Notes under the pieces: generated by a model
What the model was told of the DNA's origin: nothing
Databases searched by the model: none
The model's input: only the letters and a program-made list of their open reading frames with translations
Translations under genes and position numbers: made by a program
NCBI GenBank assembly: GCA_020341755.1
Contig: CP070834.1
Location: 1,593,929-1,633,955 of the forward strand
From: Caldifarciminota bacterium
GTDB taxonomy: Bacteria; Hydrothermota; Tepidihabitantia; SM23-42
Direction of reading: 5' to 3'
Length of the DNA stretch: 40,027 nt
Part shown: piece by piece, positions 13,722 through 27,530 of the stretch
How positions within the stretch are numbered: the first letter of the stretch is position 1
How the letters are laid out: each line of letters opens with the position of its first letter

Positions 13722-15905
13722 CTACTCTTTTTCTTCTTTAGGAGAAAGGAGATCCTGGGCGTACACAGAAATCTGTTGGTCGCGGCTCGCTGCTGCCTGT
13801 TCCAGGGCTTTCTTTGCTTCTTCGCCGCCGATCTGATGTATCGCCCTGAGTGCTGCCGCCTTTGTAGGGTACAGGATATTACTCCGGAACAGTGCTTTTT
13901 CATGGAGCACGTCCACCAAGGTGCTAATGACCGTGGAGTTTCCAAACTGGCCGAGTACGGCGATGATATTCTGCCGGAATTTTTCTTCTTCTGTTTCCGG
14001 TATACCTTTCCGCGTCTTGAGCCAACCTGCTATATCGCTCATCTTCATAGCCGCTTCCTCACGGGACAGGTTTTGGACTGCCGCAAGGATCGTGCTCTTA
14101 TATTTACTTTTCAGGGCCTTGACGAAGTACTGCTTTGCGCTGTGATCACCTAGTTTCTTCAGACTGTGTATCACCTCGAGCTGCACCTGTTCGGATTCAT
14201 CACTGATCATTTGACCGAGAATGTCGACCGATTCTTTCGCCTGGATTTCTCCCAGAAGATGTACGCCGTTTCGTCTGATATACCACTTCGATGAAGCGAG
14301 CAATTTTCTTATTTCCGGGATTGCATTTGTGCCGATGCGAACAAGGACATCAAGGATCTTCATCCTGATCGATTTATCGTCAGTATCTTTCAGCGTCTCG
14401 ATCAAGAGCGGCGTGGCAAATTCAGAGAGTACGATGAGCGCTTCACGTGCTTCGACAAAAGTTCCTTGATCCCAGAGCAGGGAAACGAGTTCGGTGACGT
14501 AGTTCTCATCTTTGAGTTCACTGATCGCTCTGATAATACATTTCTTTTTCTCGATCAGAGCGACATCCTTTCGTAGAAGATGTTTGCCGAACTTCTTCGA
14601 TATGAACTGTACGATTTCATCGTTGGTGTACTCACGTGCCTTTTCATACACCAACTTTAGCGATCCTATGACCTTCTCAAACGTCACCATATCGGTCTCG
14701 GCATCGGCCATAGAATCGAAGCGGTCGATGAGCAGTCTGAGCAAATCGATATTTCCGGAATCGAATATCCTCTCGACGTATGCGGATAGTTCTTCAACTG
14801 CCTTTCTCCGTTCGTCCTGAGATTCTTCGCGCAACCGGGGGAAAATTGTTCTCATCTGCGTCTCGAGATTCTTGGTCGCAAAGGCATCTGAGCCGCGCTC
14901 GCCCTCAACGGTTTTTATTTCTGTCATGAGACGTGCGGCGATCTTTTCAAAATCGAGCTGCGGTGCATTGACCCGCAGTGATGCAAGTATTCCGGGCAGT
15001 CTCGTACCAGTAACGTTCTTGAGGATATCGATGATGTCCTGTTCCATTGCCGGGCTCTTTTCTCCAGCCTTTGTGGTAATGACATCGATGATGTCCTCGT
15101 CACTCATCGTCGGAATGAGATTCTTGAACAGCACAGCCAGTTTTTTGTTCTCTGTACGGTACTTCACGATATTCTTTTTGATGTTCGGGGACAATGCTGA
15201 GAGCATACGCGAGAACACCATCGAATACTCGTCCCAACGGTCCTCGCCGTACTGATCGGCGACTAGAAGAGCAAGCCGCTCCAATCCGGAAATGATCCTG
15301 TCGGTCTGAACATTAATGGGTTCACCGCCGACGAGTCCTACCTGAGCAAGAAATCCTCCCAGTTCCCTTATCCGTTCTTCGTCGGTCGCCACAGTCCGTC
15401 CTACCGCGAGCGTATCGAGGAACTGCCCCCATGCCATCATCGGACCCTCGTGATCACTCGACACAACACCAACCTGCAATTTATTGACCCGGATACCGGT
15501 TATTCCCTTTGCCCTGACCAGAGCGACAATATCACCATAATCGGCAAGGTCGGCCGGTGTCGCAACCATCGCGTTGAAAAACTCTTGAATGTCATTTTCT
15601 GATATATCGGTTCCGAACGTGATACTCTTTACACCAACCTTATTGAACCTGTTCACGAGGCTCTTGATGATCGGCAGTTGTTTTGAACTGAAACGATCTT
15701 CGTCAATCATGATAACATCCTCGATTACCACCAGCGAAATCGAGTCTTTCTCAATAGGAATCTCTTTCAGGAGTATGCGGAGCCTCTGCACCACCGGCTG
15801 CATAGAGGGATGGCCTTTGGGGTACGCACGCGCTATATTGATGCCAACGCCTATCTGTTTGAGTAGATCATTGTAAAATGCTTTAGCGTCTCCTGCCACG
15901 ATCAT
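13722..15905 (-). CDS. HEAT-repeat protein of the cyclase operon
   Basis: The 727-residue product is cytoplasmic (no signal, no membrane segment). Residues about 1-160 form a domain beginning KQIGVGINIARAYPKGHPSM that I associate loosely with N-terminal regions of bacterial signalling proteins; the exact family is not recognised. The middle is helical. About residues 480-720 are HEAT repeats, for example ATPLLIETLKDTDDKSIRMK, IGTNAIPEIRKLLASSKWYI and ESVDILGQMISDESEQVQLE. HEAT repeats bind proteins, so this is probably the scaffold or target of the two cyclase-domain proteins encoded just upstream. Its ATG overlaps the preceding stop codon as ATGA. Confidence 0.8.
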   Translation of the reverse strand: MIVAGDAKAFYNDLLKQIGVGINIARAYPKGHPSMQPVVQRLRILLKEIPIEKDSISLVVIEDVIMIDEDRFSSKQLPIIKSLVNRFNKVGVKSITFGTDISENDIQEFFNAMVATPADLADYGDIVALVRAKGITGIRVNKLQVGVVSSDHEGPMMAWGQFLDTLAVGRTVATDEERIRELGGFLAQVGLVGGEPINVQTDRIISGLERLALLVADQYGEDRWDEYSMVFSRMLSALSPNIKKNIVKYRTENKKLAVLFKNLIPTMSDEDIIDVITTKAGEKSPAMEQDIIDILKNVTGTRLPGILASLRVNAPQLDFEKIAARLMTEIKTVEGERGSDAFATKNLETQMRTIFPRLREESQDERRKAVEELSAYVERIFDSGNIDLLRLLIDRFDSMADAETDMVTFEKVIGSLKLVYEKAREYTNDEIVQFISKKFGKHLLRKDVALIEKKKCIIRAISELKDENYVTELVSLLWDQGTFVEAREALIVLSEFATPLLIETLKDTDDKSIRMKILDVLVRIGTNAIPEIRKLLASSKWYIRRNGVHLLGEIQAKESVDILGQMISDESEQVQLEVIHSLKKLGDHSAKQYFVKALKSKYKSTILAAVQNLSREEAAMKMSDIAGWLKTRKGIPETEEEKFRQNIIAVLGQFGNSTVISTLVDVLHEKALFRSNILYPTKAAALRAIHQIGGEEAKKALEQAAASRDQQISVYAQDLLSPKEEKE

Positions 15906-16552
15906 GCCCCTTTCATGCGATATTCAAACGCACGTACACTCAATGCATCCTGCACAAATTCACCAATTTCCTCAAATGTAAAGAAAGATTTTGCGATCCT
16001 GTATAGATTATCACATATAAGGATCGTGTTTTCCTCAGCATTCTTCTGCAGCACCTGACTCTTAGCAAAACCCGTTGTCATAATATAGGAACTGCGTAAA
16101 TCATTTCCTATATTATACAATGAAGCCTTCTCCATGGCAATGCCTATTTTCAGGCCGATCGGGTTCTCTGCAGTTTCTTTTTTGTTCATCTCCAGGATCG
16201 TCCTGAGCATTTCTTCGGCTGCCATAATAGCCATCTGAGGAGAAAACCCAGATTCTTGTGGATAACCGAAAATACTCACCATCTCATCACCGATGATATC
16301 ATACATTATACCCTTGTGCGATGCGGTAATTTCTGCCATCGTGCTGAATACATTGTTCAGGAAGATCATCACTTCCTCTGCGGTCATAGATTCGCTCATC
16401 TTGGTGAAACCCGAAAGGTCTGCGCGCAGTATCGTTAGCTTCAAATGCTCGAGTGGTAGATCACTCTTCGTCCCGGTGAACGCACCGCACAGGGGGCAAA
16501 ATTGAGCGTCTTCAGGAAATTCTGATGCACAATACTTACACTGCATCTTCAC
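15902..16552 (-). CDS. Zinc-ribbon protein with degenerate class III cyclase domain
   Basis: The 216-residue product has an N-terminal zinc ribbon (C5, C8, C19, C22: CKYC, CPLC) and then a class III nucleotidyl cyclase domain (about 38-210). Both metal-binding aspartates are present: D45 (RADLSGFT) and D89 (IIGDEMVSIFG). The other half of the active site is gone: where active enzymes have GDxxNxAxR this one has TTGFAKSQ (159-166), and the substrate lysine position holds Asp (D85). Alone it should not make cyclic nucleotides. Start is GTG overlapping the upstream stop as GTGA; an ATG two codons on is possible. Likely partner of the 1057-residue protein. Confidence 0.85.
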   Translation of the reverse strand: MKMQCKYCASEFPEDAQFCPLCGAFTGTKSDLPLEHLKLTILRADLSGFTKMSESMTAEEVMIFLNNVFSTMAEITASHKGIMYDIIGDEMVSIFGYPQESGFSPQMAIMAAEEMLRTILEMNKKETAENPIGLKIGIAMEKASLYNIGNDLRSSYIMTTGFAKSQVLQKNAEENTILICDNLYRIAKSFFTFEEIGEFVQDALSVRAFEYRMKGA

Positions 16553-19500
16553 ATCTCCAGGAGCCTTGAATACTCGGGTTTAAGGCTGAAGAACTGCTGA
16601 TTTTCCTTCTTCAGCTTGAATTTTATATCATCGAATACGAGCAGCGCTTTCTGACCGTAATAACGGGTCTTTTCGACATCCTGCTTTTCGGCACTGATCT
16701 CGGTCATCCGGAACAGTGCATGAGCAACAAGCGGTGGCAATTTAATCGTCTGGGCGACATCCAGTGCTTTTTCTGCATACTCAGCCGAAGCATCCCCATC
16801 TATGAAACTCATCATATAATAACAGGCATACTCTATTTCCCGGTATCCCTTTTCCACCGCGTTCTTCAACGTACTGGTGATGAAATCCCGTGCCCGGTCG
16901 TATTCCTTCAGGTTATAGAATATGCTGGCTTTCTTCAAGTTTATTTCAGACAATAATTTATCTCTGATAAGAAACGAGACCTTATTATCGGCGCGTTGTA
17001 TATACTCATCCGTTTTCTGGGGAGAACTGTCCAGGGAATAGATGATCGCCAGGTCGAGTGCTGATTTTATATATATTTCCGTGTTACCTATTTCATCAGC
17101 CTGTTCGTGACAATCGTGGTACAGCATCCGAGCCTTTTGCAGATTCCAAAGTTGATAATTAATATCTGCGAAAAAATAGGTGAATTGTGTAAGCCATCTT
17201 ATATTATCTTTGGCTATCAACTCGCTGATCCCGTGGTTCAGGTATTCCAGAGCTTGCTCGTAATTGCCGAGATTCTTGTGAAGCTGTGCAAGGTTTATCA
17301 GACACAAAAGCTCACCTTTCTCGTATTCCTGGGCGCGGGCGATATTCCAGCTGAGATTATAGTTCAGGATGCTTTTTTCATATTCATACGTGCACTGGTA
17401 TACTGCTCCGAGATCAGAGTAGAGAACGGACTGCAGGTCGGTCATCTGCTCGTCGCACTGTTCGATGCCATCAAGCAGCTGTTGTTCGGCTTCTGAGAGC
17501 CTGTTCGTCAGCAGGAATGCCACTGCCTGACGTTCCAAGAAACTCACTGTGTCGCGAACATCTTTGGCAGACTGTGCATACTGCAAACCCTCGGTTGCCG
17601 CCTTCTCCAACTTATCAATATCACCTCTGATCTCGTGTATATCCGAAAGATGCAGCAAGACATGGCGGGCTACATCATTACTGATATGAGCACTCTTATG
17701 TTTTACCAGAGCCATTACGTCATTATAATATTTCACTGCCTGATCCAGTGCATACAGATTCTTCGCCTTATCACCGGCAAGACTGAAATAATGGGCGGCT
17801 TTTCCATACCGGTCACACGAACGATAATGATGACCGACATTCTCATAATACTCGGCGAGTTGGTCAGCGTAGAGGTCCTCGTACAGACTTGCGACAAGAT
17901 GATGTATCTCTTTTCGCTTTTTAACCGGCAAAACTGTATAGGCAGCATCCTTCATGAGATTATGACGGAATATATACGAAGGATCCCGACCTTCCTTTGC
18001 CACCAGGATATAGCCTTCTTCAACAAGATAACGCAGCCTCTCTTTCAAGTTCATAGTCGGGAACAGTCCTTCAAGGATGAGATAATTGAAATTGTAACCG
18101 ATGACCGATGCGCAATCGACGATCAGACGGAATTCAGCCGGCAGCGAATCGATCGTCGACATGACCACACCATAGAGATCATCGAGGAATGGAAGTTTTT
18201 GTTCTTTATGAAGAACCCAGCGACCCTCCACCTGGGTTATGAATTTGGTCCGCCTGGTGTTCCTGATGGCCTCGATCGTGAAAAGTGGATTCCCACCAGA
18301 ACTCTTATACAAGAATTCGATGAGATGGTCATCGGCGTTTTTCAGGAAATGCAGTGCTAATTCAGCCGTGGCCTCACGGGAAAGCGGACCAAGATTCACG
18401 CGCGTAACCGGTACCATGATCCTGCTCACGATATCCTTTGGCGCATTGACCAGAACGAACACAACCGGTTGGTTTTTCAATTCTGATGTCAAATAGGTGA
18501 TAAGATAACGGGACATTTCATCGGCTTTGTTGAATTCTTCGAAGATCAATACAAAGGTGCTGTTCTTGCACTCATAGGTAATGAGACTCTTTATGGATGA
18601 AAATATCTCTTCATTTATGGATAGCATTTCAGTATGATTCATTCGCTCCATATCAGACAAGAAGAGATGTTTTAATCCGCGCGCAATAAGCGGCGAGAGC
18701 CCGCGCTCTACCAACATATCGGTTATCCGAACATCGACTGCGTCTTTGGTATCATTATCGCGAAGATTGAAATATTGTTTCAAAAAAAGTTTGAATGGAA
18801 AGTATGCCGACCCCATCTCTGCCGAGCAATGGGTTTCGAAATAGTGGCAGAAACCACATTCACTGAGCCGTGTTTCATAGGCTTCTTTGAGTCTGGTCTT
18901 GCCAATACCCATCTGTCCGGTAATGACGATGAATTTCAAATTTCTTGTATTCGCACTTTCTGTGATATCCATCAATTGCTCAAGTTCCTGTTCGCGACCA
19001 TACAGAGGGATCGCTTGTTTTGATGGAACATCGGGTTTCTCTTTCAGTTCTTTGATTAAGTAGATGTCGATCTTCGCCGTTTTTCCTTTTATGCTGCGTT
19101 CGCCAAGATGATCGACATCAACATATTCCGATACTCTGCTGTACGTGGTCTCGCTCATGAGGATGTCGTTGCGCGGACACATCTCAGCCAGCCGGGCGGC
19201 GGTATTGATGGTATCACCAATGACCGTCAGGAAACGCGGTTTCTCGAGCACGTAGCCAAAGAAGGCACGCCCGGTATTTATGCCAATGGTGAGATCGATC
19301 GATTTCAGCAGGCTCACGCTTTCCCTCTTCTTCTCCCACCACGTCCTAATCTGCCATGCACAGCGAATCGCCCTGAGCGGATCATCACGGTGTGCTTTAG
19401 GCGCTCCAAAAATCCCGAGGATACGTGAATCTGCGGTAATCACGTTCGAGGTGCCGCCGAGTTTGTGGATGAGCCCGGACATGTATGACATGCACTCATG

Positions 19501-19722
19501 AACGATGAGCAAAGCTTCATCATGAGCAACATCATCCATAAGGCTCTCGAATCCGATGCAATCTATGAACAATACCGAGAGAATCCGTGCCTCTCCGCCC
19601 CAGAATTGGAGGCGATCGGTCACGGCTTCGGAAGTGCGGGACGCGGTCATGTGGGACCCGCAGTAGCAGCAATATGTCGGGTCGGCAACGGTCATTTCTT
19701 TTTCACAAACATGGCATCTCAT
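16549..19722 (-). CDS. Zinc ribbon - class III cyclase domain - AAA ATPase - TPR signalling protein
   Basis: This 1057-residue cytoplasmic protein reads in order: zinc ribbon (C3, C6, C18, C21), class III adenylate/guanylate cyclase domain (about 44-225), AAA_16/STAND-like ATPase (from GREQELEQL at 242; Walker A GQMGIGKT at 269-276; Walker B-like FVLIFEEF), and a long TPR array (about 620-1040). In the cyclase domain D54 (FIDCIGFE) and D98 (ITADSRILGIFG) bind metal, and D170, N173 and R177 (VIGDTINTAARL) are intact, but the usual substrate lysine is Val94. The architecture is known in many bacteria as a signal-sensing ATPase-cyclase; its ligand is unknown. First large gene of the three-gene operon. 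Confidence 0.9.
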   Translation of the reverse strand: MRCHVCEKEMTVADPTYCCYCGSHMTASRTSEAVTDRLQFWGGEARILSVLFIDCIGFESLMDDVAHDEALLIVHECMSYMSGLIHKLGGTSNVITADSRILGIFGAPKAHRDDPLRAIRCAWQIRTWWEKKRESVSLLKSIDLTIGINTGRAFFGYVLEKPRFLTVIGDTINTAARLAEMCPRNDILMSETTYSRVSEYVDVDHLGERSIKGKTAKIDIYLIKELKEKPDVPSKQAIPLYGREQELEQLMDITESANTRNLKFIVITGQMGIGKTRLKEAYETRLSECGFCHYFETHCSAEMGSAYFPFKLFLKQYFNLRDNDTKDAVDVRITDMLVERGLSPLIARGLKHLFLSDMERMNHTEMLSINEEIFSSIKSLITYECKNSTFVLIFEEFNKADEMSRYLITYLTSELKNQPVVFVLVNAPKDIVSRIMVPVTRVNLGPLSREATAELALHFLKNADDHLIEFLYKSSGGNPLFTIEAIRNTRRTKFITQVEGRWVLHKEQKLPFLDDLYGVVMSTIDSLPAEFRLIVDCASVIGYNFNYLILEGLFPTMNLKERLRYLVEEGYILVAKEGRDPSYIFRHNLMKDAAYTVLPVKKRKEIHHLVASLYEDLYADQLAEYYENVGHHYRSCDRYGKAAHYFSLAGDKAKNLYALDQAVKYYNDVMALVKHKSAHISNDVARHVLLHLSDIHEIRGDIDKLEKAATEGLQYAQSAKDVRDTVSFLERQAVAFLLTNRLSEAEQQLLDGIEQCDEQMTDLQSVLYSDLGAVYQCTYEYEKSILNYNLSWNIARAQEYEKGELLCLINLAQLHKNLGNYEQALEYLNHGISELIAKDNIRWLTQFTYFFADINYQLWNLQKARMLYHDCHEQADEIGNTEIYIKSALDLAIIYSLDSSPQKTDEYIQRADNKVSFLIRDKLLSEINLKKASIFYNLKEYDRARDFITSTLKNAVEKGYREIEYACYYMMSFIDGDASAEYAEKALDVAQTIKLPPLVAHALFRMTEISAEKQDVEKTRYYGQKALLVFDDIKFKLKKENQQFFSLKPEYSRLLEM

Positions 19723-21313: not shown

Positions 21314-22714
21314 TTACCATTTCCCGGTCATGAGGTATTCATGCATTGAGCGGGCAGCTACCCGACCATCGCCCATCGCCAGGATAACGGTCGCACCGCC
21401 GCGGACCACGTCTCCGCCTGCCCAGCATCGTGGTTTCGAGGTCTTACCGGTCTCGGGATCGGCTTCGATATTCCCCCATTTGCCGACTTTGAGATCCGGT
21501 GTGGTCTGGGGAATGAGCGGATTCGGGCTCTGACCGATCGCACAGACTACAGTGTCGACCGGCGTGACGAAATTCGAACCGTCAATCGGCACTGGCCGTC
21601 TTCTTCCCGATGCATCGGGTTCGCCCAACTCCATTTTTATACATTCCATCTCTTTCACCCAGGATTTCTTATCACCGATGTATTTTATCGGGAGGGTGAG
21701 TATGTCGAAGATGATCCCTTCACCTTCAGCATGATGTATCTCTTCAAGCCGCGCCGGCATTTCTTTGTGCGAGCGCCGGTACACGATGTGAACTTGTTCG
21801 GCACCGAGACGCAATGCGGTCCGGGCGCAGTCCATTGCTACATTCCCGCCGCCGATGACCGCTACACTCTTGCCGCGCACGATTGGTGTATCGTATTCGG
21901 GAAAGAGATATGCCTTCATCAAATTGGCACGGGTGAGATATTCGTTCGCCGAGTATACACCGTTGAGATTCTCGCCAGGTATGTTCATGAACCAGGGCAG
22001 ACCAGCGCCGGTTCCGATATACACAACATCGTAGCTCTCGAGGAGCTGGTCGATCGTGGCTGTCTTGCCCACGACAAAATCCAGCACCAGTTTTACACCG
22101 CATTCTATCAGATAATCGACTTCCCGATATACGATTGCCTTGGGCAACCGGAATTCAGGGATACCGTAGACCAGCACACCGCCCGGTTCATGTAATGCCT
22201 CGAACATGGTCACCGCATGCCCCAGTTTGATAAGATCTCCGGCAACGGTCAAACCACCCGGACCGCTGCCGATGATGGCAACCTTTTTTCCGGTTTGTGA
22301 GGGGATTTTAGGGACTGACATACTTCCCTGCGCTCTTTCCCAGTCAGCGGCAAAACGTTCCAGACGCCCGATCGCCACCGGTTCATATTTTTTCGTCAGC
22401 ACGCAGACCTTTTCACACTGGTCCTCCTGAGGACAGACCCTGCCGCAGACCGCAGGGAGTATATTTTTCTCCTTTAATCTGTCGATCGCCGCTTGAAAAT
22501 CCCCCTTCGCGATAAAATCAATGAAGCCCGGAATGTCGATCTCAACCGGACAGCCCTGTATGCATGTCGGCCTCTTGCACTGTAGACAGCGGCTGGCTTC
22601 CTGCATCGCTTCTTTTTCGCTGTACCCGTATGGGACCTCGGCATAATTCCTGATACGCTCTTTTGCCGGTTGTTCGCGCATCGGGATCTTTGTTGGCTGT
22701 ATCTTCTTAGCCAT
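21314..22714 (-). CDS. nfnB: NfnB-type large flavoprotein subunit (glutamate-synthase small-subunit family)
   Basis: Family member with two [4Fe-4S] clusters, FAD and an NADP(H) site. The N-terminal cysteines CLQCKRPTCIQGCP and CGRVCPQEDQCEKVC (about 45-110) hold the clusters. VAIIGSGPGGLTVAGDLIKL binds FAD, and VAVIGGGNVAMDCARTALRL followed by VYRRSHKEMPA binds NADP(H). Because nfnA lies directly upstream and there is no glutamate synthase large subunit, NfnB of the ferredoxin:NADP+ oxidoreductase is preferred over GltD. The ATG at 22714 overlaps nfnA by eight bases; a GTG at 22723 is also possible. Length (466 residues) fits Nfn large subunits. Confidence 0.9.
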   Translation of the reverse strand: MAKKIQPTKIPMREQPAKERIRNYAEVPYGYSEKEAMQEASRCLQCKRPTCIQGCPVEIDIPGFIDFIAKGDFQAAIDRLKEKNILPAVCGRVCPQEDQCEKVCVLTKKYEPVAIGRLERFAADWERAQGSMSVPKIPSQTGKKVAIIGSGPGGLTVAGDLIKLGHAVTMFEALHEPGGVLVYGIPEFRLPKAIVYREVDYLIECGVKLVLDFVVGKTATIDQLLESYDVVYIGTGAGLPWFMNIPGENLNGVYSANEYLTRANLMKAYLFPEYDTPIVRGKSVAVIGGGNVAMDCARTALRLGAEQVHIVYRRSHKEMPARLEEIHHAEGEGIIFDILTLPIKYIGDKKSWVKEMECIKMELGEPDASGRRRPVPIDGSNFVTPVDTVVCAIGQSPNPLIPQTTPDLKVGKWGNIEADPETGKTSKPRCWAGGDVVRGGATVILAMGDGRVAARSMHEYLMTGKW

Positions 22715-23531
22715 ATCGCTCACACTCGTAAAAACTCAAGGAATATACCTCTTCTCGGATATATATCTTACGCCGGGACAGTAGATTATCCCAATCGACC
22801 TGATGACCGTCGAATTCAGGACCATCGACGCAGCCGAACTTGGTCTCTCCGTTAATGGTGACCCGGCATACTCCGCACATACCCGTTGCATCGACCATGA
22901 TTGGATTCAAGCCCACGATCGTCTTGATGCCGAAGGGACGCGTGGTCTCACTTGCCAAGTAGGTCAGATAGGTACAGCCCTGTACGTACACCAGATCGAC
23001 TTTACTCTTCTTCAGATGTTCAACGAGAAAATCATTGATATGTCCCCTGACACCCCTGGTACCGTCGCGGGTTATTTCATACAACTCATCGCTGTGTTCC
23101 TTCAACCTCTCGCGCCAGTACAACAGGAAATCACTGCGTGCTTCAATGATGGTTGTCACATGGTTCTTATTTGCCTTGAACATCCTGAGCACCGGGTTGA
23201 GGGCACCGATACCGTAACAGCCGCCGATACAGACGATCTTCTTGCCCTCTGATTTTTCAGTCGGCTTTCCCAGCGGTCCGGCAAGGGTGGCGATTTCATC
23301 TCCGGGTTTCAATGCTGCTAACTTACTCGTGGAGGTGCCCACTTCCATGAAAACCATACTGACGCTTCGCTCGTCCCAGTCAACAAGATTCAGAGGAATA
23401 CGTTCACCTTTCTCATCGGCCCGTACTACCACAAATTCACCGGCATGGGCGTTCTTGTGAATATGCTCGGTTTCAACAACCAGCAAATGTATGTTCGGGA
23501 CGATCTGTTTTCTTTCTATGACTTTATACAT
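22707..23531 (-). CDS. nfnA: NfnA-type FAD/NAD-binding subunit
   Basis: The 274-residue product belongs to the ferredoxin-NADP reductase-like family that includes NfnA, SudB and PyrK. It has the FAD-binding barrel (IPLNLVDWDERSVSMVFME), a nucleotide-binding half beginning KKIVCIGGCYGIGALNPVLR, and a C-terminal [2Fe-2S] site, DATGMCGVCRVTINGETKFG with a further Cys in GCVDGPEFDG. NfnA-NfnB enzymes couple NADH and reduced ferredoxin to NADP+ reduction by flavin-based bifurcation or confurcation. It overlaps the NuoG-like gene by 16 bases and nfnB by eight, so the three are tightly coupled. Confidence 0.92.
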   Translation of the reverse strand: MYKVIERKQIVPNIHLLVVETEHIHKNAHAGEFVVVRADEKGERIPLNLVDWDERSVSMVFMEVGTSTSKLAALKPGDEIATLAGPLGKPTEKSEGKKIVCIGGCYGIGALNPVLRMFKANKNHVTTIIEARSDFLLYWRERLKEHSDELYEITRDGTRGVRGHINDFLVEHLKKSKVDLVYVQGCTYLTYLASETTRPFGIKTIVGLNPIMVDATGMCGVCRVTINGETKFGCVDGPEFDGHQVDWDNLLSRRKIYIREEVYSLSFYECERYG

Positions 23532-25699
23532 TCGATCCTCACCGATTGATCTCCACTGATTGCCAGGGATGGATGAGCATAGATGAGTGCACTATCCGGA
23601 GGAACGTGATCAGTAATCCGCGCCGGTAGTGTGAGATCGATAGCTTGACCGATCACTCGTACATCAGCACCATCTGCTATCTTCAACTTTCTTGCTGTAG
23701 CACTATTAATCCAAATGCGATTATCATACCGCAGCCGCTCGAAACCCTTCATCAATGCAGAAAGCATGTGACCGCGGTAGACAAAAGAATTTTTTCGGAC
23801 TATTAAATACAGTGGATACTTCTTCGTTACCGTGATCTTCCGAAGTTGAGATTTTTTCCCACGCCTTTTTCGCCGGATTGTACGCTTCGTTAGATCGCAG
23901 TTCAACGCTTTGCCGATCTCCTTGATGATCCACAGGTCCGGTCGTGAGTTTCCAAGCGGCTCGGTCGCCTTGTGTAGTCGTTTGATCTTACCATTGATGT
24001 TGACGACGGTGCCGTCGATTTCAACGAATGAAGCCGCTGGAAGGAAAAGGTCGAAATCAAAAGAAGGCGGGAAAGAATCCTGCACGATGAGTCTCTTGTA
24101 TTTTCTATCCAGTCTTGGAGCAACACCGATCGTATACAGACAATCAACGGACTTGTCTTTCAATACACGTTCGGCAGAATCGTCCGTACCCATCTCGAGG
24201 ATTTTTAAAGTATTAATACTGCTCGCCAGCGGCAGTACACTGACCCGTTTTGGGAGTTTCATGCCCTTCATGTTGTCTGCATTAAAGAGCAGATAAACGG
24301 GCCCTTCCTTTACCGCATCTCTGCACGAGGTATAATCCTCTTGTGAAACGCCGACAGATTTCCCGATCCTACCTCCTGCGAACAGAGTTCTCACCAGATC
24401 CGACTCTTTTCCGGGCCGCGGCTGTAACCAGAGATCAGCCATCTCAGCCACTCTGCTTTTAACGGCATCGATAACAATAATGCGGTGCTGCATCTTCGAA
24501 TGCTTCCTCGCATGCAAAAGTACTGGTGCAAAATCACTAACCATATCAGTGTTTACGATTAGAATGACCGATCCCCTCTCGAATTTTTTCACATCGAAAG
24601 GTCTGACAACAGCGTCGAGTGCAAGCGGTGCGGCAATTGTGCTTTTCAGATGACGGGCGAGGGCATAGATACTGTCGATCGCTTTCACCGGCATCTGGGG
24701 AGTGAAGAGTATACCTGTTTTTCCCGTGTATGCCTTCAGTGTCTCGGCAACGTACGCAAGTGCTTCTTTCCACTCAACCTGGACGAGGCGGTCACCTTTC
24801 TTTAATAATGGCTGTGTGATCCGCTTTGGATGGTAAACCAGCGGTGCGATGCCGAAGCGGCCGCGCACGCAGATCTGCTCATGAGTCGGCGTAGTATTTA
24901 TCAGCTTCTTATCATTAATTTTAAGATCGATCGAACAACCGATATTGCATAACAGACAGGTACTCTGTACCGACTTCTCGGGCACGCCTTCCCACTTGCT
25001 GTATCGCTCCCGTAATGCGCCGGTCGGGCATACATCCACACATGCTCCGCAGAACTGGCAGCCGCTTTCCAGATGCGGTAAGCCATATGCAGTACCCACC
25101 ATGGTTTCTGGTCCGCGGTGGTGAAAATCCAGGGTACCGGCTTCTCGTATTTCCTGGCACGCCCGGATACATCGACCGCACAGGATACAGAGATTGTAAT
25201 CCCGTTCAAAGAAAGGATCACATTTCTCGATCTCCATGTTGCGGTATTTGAAACTGAAAGGGATTTCCTCTATCTTAAGATAATCGATCAATTCTTGTAA
25301 CTCGCAGTTTCCGTTGCGTGCACAGAACTTGCATCCGGATGTTATGGCCGTTTTCTGGATACATTCCTGATAATCAGCACATTCTATTCTCTTCTCACAA
25401 ACCAAACAGGCATGAGGATGCTCTGAAAGAATCAGCTGCAGAGAGAATCTGCGCAGTCTTTTGAGTAGCGGCGTTTCGGTCTCTACAACCATACCATCCT
25501 CTACCAGTAAGGTGCATGATGTCACTGGTTTTTCCCAACCTTTGACCTTCACGAGGCATAAACGACAGCCGCCGTACGGCGTGACGCCTTTCAGGTAGCA
25601 CAGTTTTGGTACGTAGATGCCCTCCCGCTGGGCTACTTCCAGCACTGTTTCACCCTTTTTGGCCCGTACCTTTTTTTTATTTATCGTTAATGTCATCAT
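23516..25699 (-). CDS. nuoG: NuoG-like iron-sulfur subunit
   Basis: About 727 residues from the ATG at 25699, chosen because it directly follows the nuoF stop; the open frame runs further upstream over nuoF sequence. Order: N-terminal plant-type [2Fe-2S] domain (LCYLKGVTPYGGCRLCLVKV), His/Cys cluster (HPHACLVCEKRIEC) with additional cysteines (SGCKFCARNGNC), two [4Fe-4S] ferredoxin motifs (CILCGRCIRAC, CQFCGACVDVC), a further cluster (CLLCNIGCS ... ICVRG), then a molybdopterin-oxidoreductase fold. That last domain lacks the Cys/Sec active-site residue of formate dehydrogenase, and no hydrogenase H-cluster motif is present, so this looks like an electron wire. It overlaps nfnA by 16 bases. Confidence 0.85.
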   Translation of the reverse strand: MMTLTINKKKVRAKKGETVLEVAQREGIYVPKLCYLKGVTPYGGCRLCLVKVKGWEKPVTSCTLLVEDGMVVETETPLLKRLRRFSLQLILSEHPHACLVCEKRIECADYQECIQKTAITSGCKFCARNGNCELQELIDYLKIEEIPFSFKYRNMEIEKCDPFFERDYNLCILCGRCIRACQEIREAGTLDFHHRGPETMVGTAYGLPHLESGCQFCGACVDVCPTGALRERYSKWEGVPEKSVQSTCLLCNIGCSIDLKINDKKLINTTPTHEQICVRGRFGIAPLVYHPKRITQPLLKKGDRLVQVEWKEALAYVAETLKAYTGKTGILFTPQMPVKAIDSIYALARHLKSTIAAPLALDAVVRPFDVKKFERGSVILIVNTDMVSDFAPVLLHARKHSKMQHRIIVIDAVKSRVAEMADLWLQPRPGKESDLVRTLFAGGRIGKSVGVSQEDYTSCRDAVKEGPVYLLFNADNMKGMKLPKRVSVLPLASSINTLKILEMGTDDSAERVLKDKSVDCLYTIGVAPRLDRKYKRLIVQDSFPPSFDFDLFLPAASFVEIDGTVVNINGKIKRLHKATEPLGNSRPDLWIIKEIGKALNCDLTKRTIRRKRRGKKSQLRKITVTKKYPLYLIVRKNSFVYRGHMLSALMKGFERLRYDNRIWINSATARKLKIADGADVRVIGQAIDLTLPARITDHVPPDSALIYAHPSLAISGDQSVRIECIKS

Positions 25700-25700
25700 A

Positions 25701-27530
25701 TCATTGTACCGCAGGCGATGTCTTCTTGACCGCCTTGAATTTTGGTGGACATACCGATAAACAGATCCCGCACTTGGTGCATTTGGTCTGGTCAATCGTA
25801 TGGATCTTCTTAGCTTCTCCGCTGATCGCCGCACTGGGGCAGTTCTTCGCGCAAACCGTACACCCACTGCACGTTTGAGGGTCGATAATATAGGAGATCA
25901 ATGATTTACAGACCAGCGCCGGGCAACGTTTTTCTCGAATATGAGCCAGATACTCTTCCCGGAAATATTTGATCGTTGTGAGTACTGGATTCGACGCGGT
26001 CTGTCCCAGTCCGCATAATGAGGCAAGTTTCACGCTCCTGCCTACCTCTTCCAGGAATGCAATGTCATGTTCCCCGCCTGTGCCTTCGCATATACGGTTG
26101 AGAATATGCACCATCTGTTTGGTTCCGAGCCGGCAGGACGGACATTTCCCGCACGATTCTTCCTGTGTGAAGTTTAGGAAATAGCGAGCAACATCGACCA
26201 TGCACGTGTCCTCGTCCATTACGATCATACCGCCCGAGCCCATCATGGAACCGGCTTTGGACAACCCTTCATAATCGATCGGCAGATCCAGAAGCTCTCG
26301 CGGTATACAACCACCAGAAGGACCGCCGGTCTGTACTGCCTTGAATTCCTTGCCGTCTGGGATTCCGCCACCGATATCATAGATGATCTGACCCAGCGTG
26401 ATGCCCATGGGTACTTCGACAAGACCGGTATTGTTTATCTTACCAACCAGAGAAAATATCTTGGTTCCCTTACTCCTCTTGGTACCGATCGATGAAAACC
26501 ACAGCGCGCCCCTTGCGATTATTACCGGGACATTTGCCCAGGTTTCGACATTATTGATATTAGTGGGTCTTCCCCACAAACCTTTTTCTGCCGGATACGG
26601 CGGTCGCGGCCTCGGCCTTCCTACTTTCCCTTCAATCGACGCGAGTAAAGCCGTTTCTTCTCCACAGACAAAGGCACCGGCGCCCTGAACAACATCGATC
26701 GTGAACGAAAAGTTTGTACCGAGTATATTCTCACCGAGCAGTCCATATTCTTCTGCCTGCCGCAAGGCAATCAATAGTTTCTTCACTGCAAGGGGGTATT
26801 CACTGCGCACGTAGATATACCCTTTGTGTGCACCGATCGCACGTGCACCGATGAGCATGCCTTCAATGACCGTATGAGGATCGGATTCCAGAACGCTTCT
26901 GTCCATGAACGCACCGGGATCACCCTCATCGCCATTACAGACAATATACTTCTTCTTCCCCGGTGATGTGCGGCACAACTCCCATTTCACCCCGGTTGGA
27001 AAACCGGCACCGCCGCGACCCCGCAGTCCCGATGCCTTTATCTCTTTGATTATTTCAGGAGGAGTCATTCTGGTAAGTGCCTTTTCCAGGGATGAGTAGC
27101 CTTCGAATCCTATGTATTCCTCGATGTTCTCGGGATCGAGTCTGCCTCTATGCCTCAAAACGATCAGTCTCTGATGTTTGAAAAACCCGATGTCCATCAG
27201 CCTGGGAATTGCCGGTTCCTCGGGTGACGGAACGAACATCATACTCTTGACAGGTCTGCCCTTAAATAGATGTTCCTCGACCAGATGCGGTACATCTTCT
27301 TTTTTTATCCTGTGATAGAATATACCATCAGGTTGAACGATCACGATAGGCCCGCGTTCGCAGAAACCCTGGCAGTCGGTCGTGATGACCGCGATCTCGT
27401 CCTCGAGCCCCTGCTTAACTATCTCTTTCTCCAATGCATCTTTGATGATGAACGAACCGTTGGCAGCACATCCGGTACCGGCGCACACAAGAAGATGCAG
27501 ACGGAAATCTTTACGTGCCTTTTTTCTCAT
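25701..27530 (-). CDS. nuoF: NuoF/HydB-like NADH-binding flavoprotein subunit
   Basis: About 609 residues from the ATG at 27530, which overlaps nuoE by 20 bases; the frame is open further upstream but there it only shadows nuoE. A thioredoxin-like [2Fe-2S] domain leads (CAGTGCAANG ... CQGFCERGP), then the NADH/FMN module (LRGRGGAGFPTGVKWE, CNGDEGDPGAFMDR, GAGAFVCGEETAL), a [4Fe-4S] site (ESCGKCPSCRLGT) and a C-terminal 2x[4Fe-4S] ferredoxin domain (CSGCTVCAKNCP, CTKCGICLSVCP). This extended form is typical of HydB/HndC proteins of bifurcating complexes rather than of respiratory complex I. NADH oxidation or NAD+ reduction is the expected role. Confidence 0.93.
   Translation of the reverse strand: MRKKARKDFRLHLLVCAGTGCAANGSFIIKDALEKEIVKQGLEDEIAVITTDCQGFCERGPIVIVQPDGIFYHRIKKEDVPHLVEEHLFKGRPVKSMMFVPSPEEPAIPRLMDIGFFKHQRLIVLRHRGRLDPENIEEYIGFEGYSSLEKALTRMTPPEIIKEIKASGLRGRGGAGFPTGVKWELCRTSPGKKKYIVCNGDEGDPGAFMDRSVLESDPHTVIEGMLIGARAIGAHKGYIYVRSEYPLAVKKLLIALRQAEEYGLLGENILGTNFSFTIDVVQGAGAFVCGEETALLASIEGKVGRPRPRPPYPAEKGLWGRPTNINNVETWANVPVIIARGALWFSSIGTKRSKGTKIFSLVGKINNTGLVEVPMGITLGQIIYDIGGGIPDGKEFKAVQTGGPSGGCIPRELLDLPIDYEGLSKAGSMMGSGGMIVMDEDTCMVDVARYFLNFTQEESCGKCPSCRLGTKQMVHILNRICEGTGGEHDIAFLEEVGRSVKLASLCGLGQTASNPVLTTIKYFREEYLAHIREKRCPALVCKSLISYIIDPQTCSGCTVCAKNCPSAAISGEAKKIHTIDQTKCTKCGICLSVCPPKFKAVKKTSPAVQ

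Follow-up and report, generated by a model that had tools for sequence, protein, structure and literature searches.

In the core of the mammalian membrane adenylyl cyclases, the metal-binding aspartates (D396 and D440) lie on the C1 domain and Asn1025, Arg1029 and Lys1065 on the C2 domain, with one complete and one degenerate site (PMC9223806). Bacterial class III cyclases are described in a 2022 review as single-domain homodimerising proteins, the fused dimeric form being unknown in bacteria, and the same review asks what benefit an unequal dimer brings (PMC9552081). The subject here is a putative unequal dimer encoded by two adjacent genes, S and B, in a stretch of 40,027 nucleotides (the window) from contig CP070834.1 of a Caldifarciminota bacterium (GenBank assembly GCA_020341755.1, positions 1,593,929 to 1,633,955). 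The host is an uncultured bacterium of candidate phylum WOR-3, with relatives named candidate division WOR-3 or Candidatus Stahlbacteria. The B-S pair is real and conserved; judged from sequence, it is best explained as a bacterial two-gene cyclase of the C1/C2 type, S and B being most likely partner subunits of a single class III nucleotide cyclase with a mammalian-like division of labor.

In the window's list of open reading frames, three genes are packed tightly on the minus strand in the order B-S-H, as one operon (all coordinates of its features below are on that strand). Open reading frames, Pfam and orthologues define gene B (16549..19722; 1057 amino acids), the large subunit, as a zinc ribbon followed by a C2-like class III cyclase domain, an AAA_16/STAND ATPase and TPRs, and gene S (15902..16552; 216 amino acids), the small subunit, as a zinc ribbon and a C1-like class III cyclase domain. 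S may start at codon 3 (ATG at 16546), the start used by most orthologues, which would make it a protein of 214 amino acids. The original prediction had placed both reading frames and named their residues correctly; the third conserved gene of the operon, H, lay beyond it. Pfam Guanylate_cyc (PF00211) matches residues 48-224 of B with 50.7 bits and residues 38-198 of S with 43.0 bits (cut-off 21.9). AlphaFold2 models of both domains have the class III cyclase fold, with CyaB, CyaC and Cya2 as the top Foldseek matches (expectation value, E, about 1e-15). The domain of B comprises residues 44-226 (19045..19593; predicted local distance difference test score, pLDDT, 82.6; Foldseek E 6.6e-16 to CyaB) and that of S residues 34-211 (15920..16453; pLDDT 87; E 3.3e-16 to CyaB).

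The catalytic positions of 25 S proteins and 21 full-length B proteins were aligned and are referred to by mammalian numbering, with the roles of the residues, including that of Lys1065 but not those at the Asp1018 and Lys938 positions, taken from PMC9223806. Both metal aspartates of S, D45 (16418..16420) and D89 (16286..16288), are invariant in all 25 proteins. The phosphate-loop threonine (T401-like) is likewise found in 25/25 S and in none of the B proteins (E59 in the window's B), and the S-type D..[GN]FT loop as a whole is distributed in the same way. The Asn/Arg half of the site is what S has lost: at 16037..16078 it reads TTGFAKSQVLQKNA, and a conserved GFxKSQxLQKNA takes its place. B holds the other half. 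T166, GD169-170, N173 and R177 (19192..19227) are invariant, the Asn and Arg (N1025- and R1029-like) occurring in 21/21 B and in no S, and GDxxNxxxR is found in every B and in 0/25 S. K212 (19087..19089), the equivalent of Lys1065, is Lys in 19 B proteins and Arg in two, and that position is never Lys or Arg in S. T166 occupies the position of mammalian Asp1018, which serves in base recognition, and the Lys938 position, taken up below, holds the purine-selecting lysine; the threonine is present in 21/21 B and 0/25 S. At the first metal position (D396-like) B has Asn in 14 proteins, Ser in four, Gln in two and Asp in only one, which is D54 of the window's B (19561..19563). Thus S has the residues of a C1-type subunit, with both metal aspartates and neither Asn nor Arg, and B those of a C2-type subunit, with the first metal aspartate gone in 20 of 21 proteins. 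The claim that S keeps D45 and D89 and has lost GDxxNxxxR (TTGFAKSQ in the window) accordingly extends to all 25 S proteins, and the claim that B keeps D170, N173 and R177 is borne out in all 21 B proteins. T166 and K212, two further C2-type residues that S lacks, had not been pointed out, nor had the aspartates at both metal positions of the window's B. In sequence searches of the PDB, S matched mammalian C1 chains (VC1, AC5, AC8, AC9) and not IIC2; B matched the beta chains of soluble guanylyl cyclase and not VC1.

Several observations fit this division less comfortably. A pure C2 subunit has no use for the second-metal aspartate, yet B keeps it across the order (D440-like; D98 at 19429..19431, also Asp in 25/25 S), with a one-residue insertion after it (PDxR) in B; the window's B has D54 as well; and structural ranking does not place S exclusively with either C1- or C2-type chains. 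With D54 and D98 both present, the window's sequence taken alone leaves room for B acting as a homodimer, complete with T166, N173, R177 and K212, and for S as a regulator in its own right or a paralogue in decay. The comparison resolves that doubt, since the other 20 B proteins lack D54, no B protein has the loop threonine, and the hairpin of the second metal aspartate carries its insertion; S, moreover, is as conserved as B, with invariant metal aspartates, and always adjoins it. A homodimer of B is in our judgement very improbable.

Orthologues were sought in a set of 100 related genomes. Of the 26 genomes that share the window's family or order, 24 have S, with 42-58% identity; the two in which it is missing are 53% and 67% complete. 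H lies directly downstream of S at 24/24 S loci and B directly upstream (one locus breaks off 139 nucleotides upstream of S), so that S sits between B and H wherever the locus is not cut by a contig end. The spacing of B and S ranges from a 4-nucleotide overlap to a 3-nucleotide gap, and at 10 loci the two are in the same reading frame. Outside the trio, rlmN is found upstream at 14 of the compared loci and polX downstream at eight; the flanks are therefore more variable than B-S-H itself. Pseudogene decay was considered and rejected, given strong conservation and open frames.

Far-diverged sets of the three genes occur in three further lineages of the phylum. One of these trios (L143) has the same B-S-H order and 24-34% identity. 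Its B has Lys and Asn at the metal positions, so that both aspartates are lost, and keeps a K938-type lysine together with the Thr, Asn and Arg; its S has Asp at both metal positions, with Glu and Leu replacing Asn and Arg. The second (L144) has the order found in the window and the third (L148) the order S-H-B, and both follow the same trend with single-residue deviations. Those deviations run counter to a clean division of the site: in L144, B has Lys for R177 and S retains an Arg close to the lost position; in L148, S retains an Asn there.

The substrate-specifying lysine was said in the original prediction to be absent from both proteins (V94 in B, D85 in S), so that the product might be unusual. 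The residues are as described, but the suggestion of an unusual product is weakened, V94 being confined to the window. At this position (K938-like) the B proteins have Arg (9), Lys (5), Gln (4), Val (1), Glu (1) or Tyr (1), and the S proteins Gln (23), Asp (1) or Glu (1). With Lys or Arg in 14/21 B, an exotic product is not required, and the missing lysine appears to be in part a peculiarity of the window's B; an obligate exotic substrate was rejected on the same count. That the purine-selecting lysine is not fixed in B, and is Gln in most S, nevertheless counts against the C1/C2 reading of the pair; adenylyl cyclases have a conserved lysine there, which is not shared by every heterodimeric class III cyclase.

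Gene order, fold and the pattern of conserved and lost residues suggest how dimer formation, catalysis, substrate and regulation might be arranged. S would be the C1-type subunit, its D45 and D89 coordinating the pair of metal ions and its F49-T50 loop the phosphates. As the C2-type partner, B would contribute its N-terminal cyclase domain, where T166 would face the base, N173 would position the ribose, and triphosphate binding and transition-state stabilisation would fall to R177 and K212. The S-B interface would thus form one complete site per pair, and ATP is the likely substrate. The mirror-image site would be degenerate and could be regulatory: strong conservation of its residues (GFxKSQxLQKNA in S, PDxR in B) hints at such a role. 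The ATPase-TPR (STAND) part of B probably has a sensing role and gates turnover, and the HEAT protein H would be a constant partner or scaffold. In B the AAA_16/STAND domain lies at 18454..19008 (Pfam), with a Walker A motif, GQMGIGKT, at 18895-18918 (G269, G274 and K275 invariant), and the TPR region at 16603..17805 (Pfam TPR_12 and related families).

In WOR-3 family f12 a GGDEF domain is fused to a relative of B's ATPase-TPR module (L151:350-3529, L153:6067-9246, L156:2223-5000, the GGDEF head being cut off in the last of these), some 2 kb away from a gene resembling H. The arrangement is consistent with an ATPase-TPR/HEAT module whose messenger-making head can be exchanged. It bears also on whether S and B form a non-catalytic heterodimer, whose interface would bind metal-nucleotide and report ATP or some other nucleotide to the STAND ATPase without any cyclisation. 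The base-selecting lysine is not conserved and the full ATPase module on B could be the real output, as such a sensor would have it. Retention of D45, D89, Asn173, Arg177 and Lys212 together exceeds the needs of mere binding, however; those residues mostly persist in the distant lineages, where the unused halves decay, and a GGDEF-bearing module near an H-like gene fits an output that makes a messenger. We consider a purely sensing dimer unlikely, though it deserves to be taken seriously.

S and B do not provide the only split of this kind. A second pair of overlapping genes (L129:1-4721, L131:3-4417, L130:3135-8500, L128:2062-8414) occurs in nine genomes of the order and is absent from the window's own genome. 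Both of its proteins are cyclase-headed and, where complete, about 1050-1100 amino acids long. The upstream, C1-like protein has AD[LI][TS]GFT and EGD and lacks the Asn and Arg, while the downstream, C2-like protein has Glu and Lys or Arg at the metal positions, IDKHEG, YTVMGDxVNxAAR and the canonical lysine. In a tree built by a brief search, in which some branches are long and which served only to separate these groups, the subunits of the second pair form clades apart from S and B; the split therefore probably arose at least twice. The chance of losses falling in complementary fashion is roughly 0.008 for S-B and 0.007 for the second pair, treating positions as independent and serving as a guide only. 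Conservation, synteny and this second, independent pair lend strong support to the original prediction of a site completed between S and B, as far as sequences can speak to it. A bolder proposal is that the phylum, independently of eukaryotes, invented C1/C2-type heterodimeric cyclases on two or more occasions, that the degenerate mirror site (with conserved K164 of S and R100 of B) is an allosteric receptor, and that base selection is relaxed, with a product other than or besides cyclic AMP (cAMP); taken as a whole we regard it as speculative and rather improbable.

How does the putative S-B enzyme compare with described cyclases? The mammalian membrane core has the same division of labor, whereas S and B are separate, soluble proteins that bear zinc ribbons and lack membrane domains, with a class IIIb-type Thr at the Asp1018 position, and a variable Lys938 position. 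Soluble adenylyl cyclase (sAC, ADCY10) also has unequal C1 and C2 domains; one of its two sites is catalytic, and the other, degenerate and regulatory, binds bicarbonate (PMC9452739). Its two domains lie in one chain, C1 first, whereas S (C1) and B (C2) are encoded by separate genes, and the operon holds no single polypeptide with the order C1-C2-ATPase-TPR. An ATPase-TPR region follows the cyclase domains in sAC. A catalytic site contributed by two gene products is described for the alpha and beta chains of soluble guanylyl cyclase and for the fungal NeoR/RGC rhodopsin cyclases (PMC3591389, PMC8815786); these enzymes are eukaryotic, act on a guanylyl substrate and have other sensory domains. 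Bacterial class IIIb homodimers (Arthrospira CyaC, P. aeruginosa CyaB) share the fold and have the whole site in one chain, whereas B and S have half each. The same is true of the cyclase-AAA-TPR proteins of 1100-1250 amino acids in these genomes, which have the domain order of B, and often its zinc-ribbon start, but a whole site in one chain. Residues 63-675 of B resemble the cyclase-ATPase part of the TOMM system kinase/cyclase fusion (TIGR03903, E 7e-50); B matches only part of that model, with 169.9 bits against a cut-off of 705.75. Matches to PycC are weak (B, best E 3e-9; S, best E 5e-8), as expected of any class III domain, and no PycTM or PycTIR effector is linked to the operon. A Pycsar defence system was rejected for this locus, there being no effector, a HEAT protein as the linked gene, and a vertically conserved operon.

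A search of open-access literature found no bacterial heterodimeric class III cyclase. Tandem cyclase domains have been reported in clade A Pycsar cyclases (PMC11224242), so that the WOR-3 phylum may not be alone among bacteria in having unequal dimers. If S and B do form a bacterial C1/C2 cyclase from two genes, and related genomes supply a second, independent case, the advantage of an unequal dimer would become testable with small soluble proteins, and the origin of unequal cyclase dimers could be considered apart from the fusion of genes and the membrane domains seen in the animal enzymes.

The window's genome (2.38 Mb) has six cyclase matches and four proteins with cyclic nucleoside monophosphate-binding domains, possibly receptors for an S-B product. 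Two more of its cyclases (L067:5313-6971 and L068:5033-6706) have apparently complete active sites and, by eye, one an FHA-like and one a CHASE2-like start; the genome could therefore make cyclic nucleotide without S and B. S, with one complete half-site, might pair promiscuously with such enzymes, at least two of them apparently complete homodimers, and inhibit or modify them. Yet B and H are present in every S-bearing genome, closely linked or overlapping, and the number of other cyclases varies widely among genomes; this must be counted a very remote prospect. Among the other cyclases of this and related genomes, 25 of 27 have both motifs, the exceptions being a truncated open reading frame and a degenerate protein of 193 amino acids in the window's genome. 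The latter (L069:6413-6994), a free-standing class III cyclase-like protein that adjoins an SPFH-type gene, has most catalytic residues degraded, with His at the N1025-like and Glu at the R1029-like position.

The remaining features can be dealt with briefly. The zinc ribbon of B (19657..19722) has C3, C6, C18 and C21 and that of S (16487..16540) C5, C8, C19 and C22, all invariant in the aligned orthologues, although the Pfam zinc-ribbon match at the S start is weak. H (13722..15905; 727 amino acids) consists of an N-terminal 'YPKGHP' domain and HEAT repeats (Pfam HEAT_2); the YPxGHP motif of the N-terminal domain is conserved, and no Pfam family matched that domain. Relatives of H are found across the phylum, several of them, judged by eye, beside purine genes of the guaA/purH type (L144, L146, L147, L149, L154). 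Elsewhere in the window, at 21314-25867, Pfam identifies three genes like those for NfnB (469 amino acids), NfnA (274 amino acids) and a NuoG-like iron-sulfur/molybdopterin subunit, which perhaps encode an electron-bifurcating complex.

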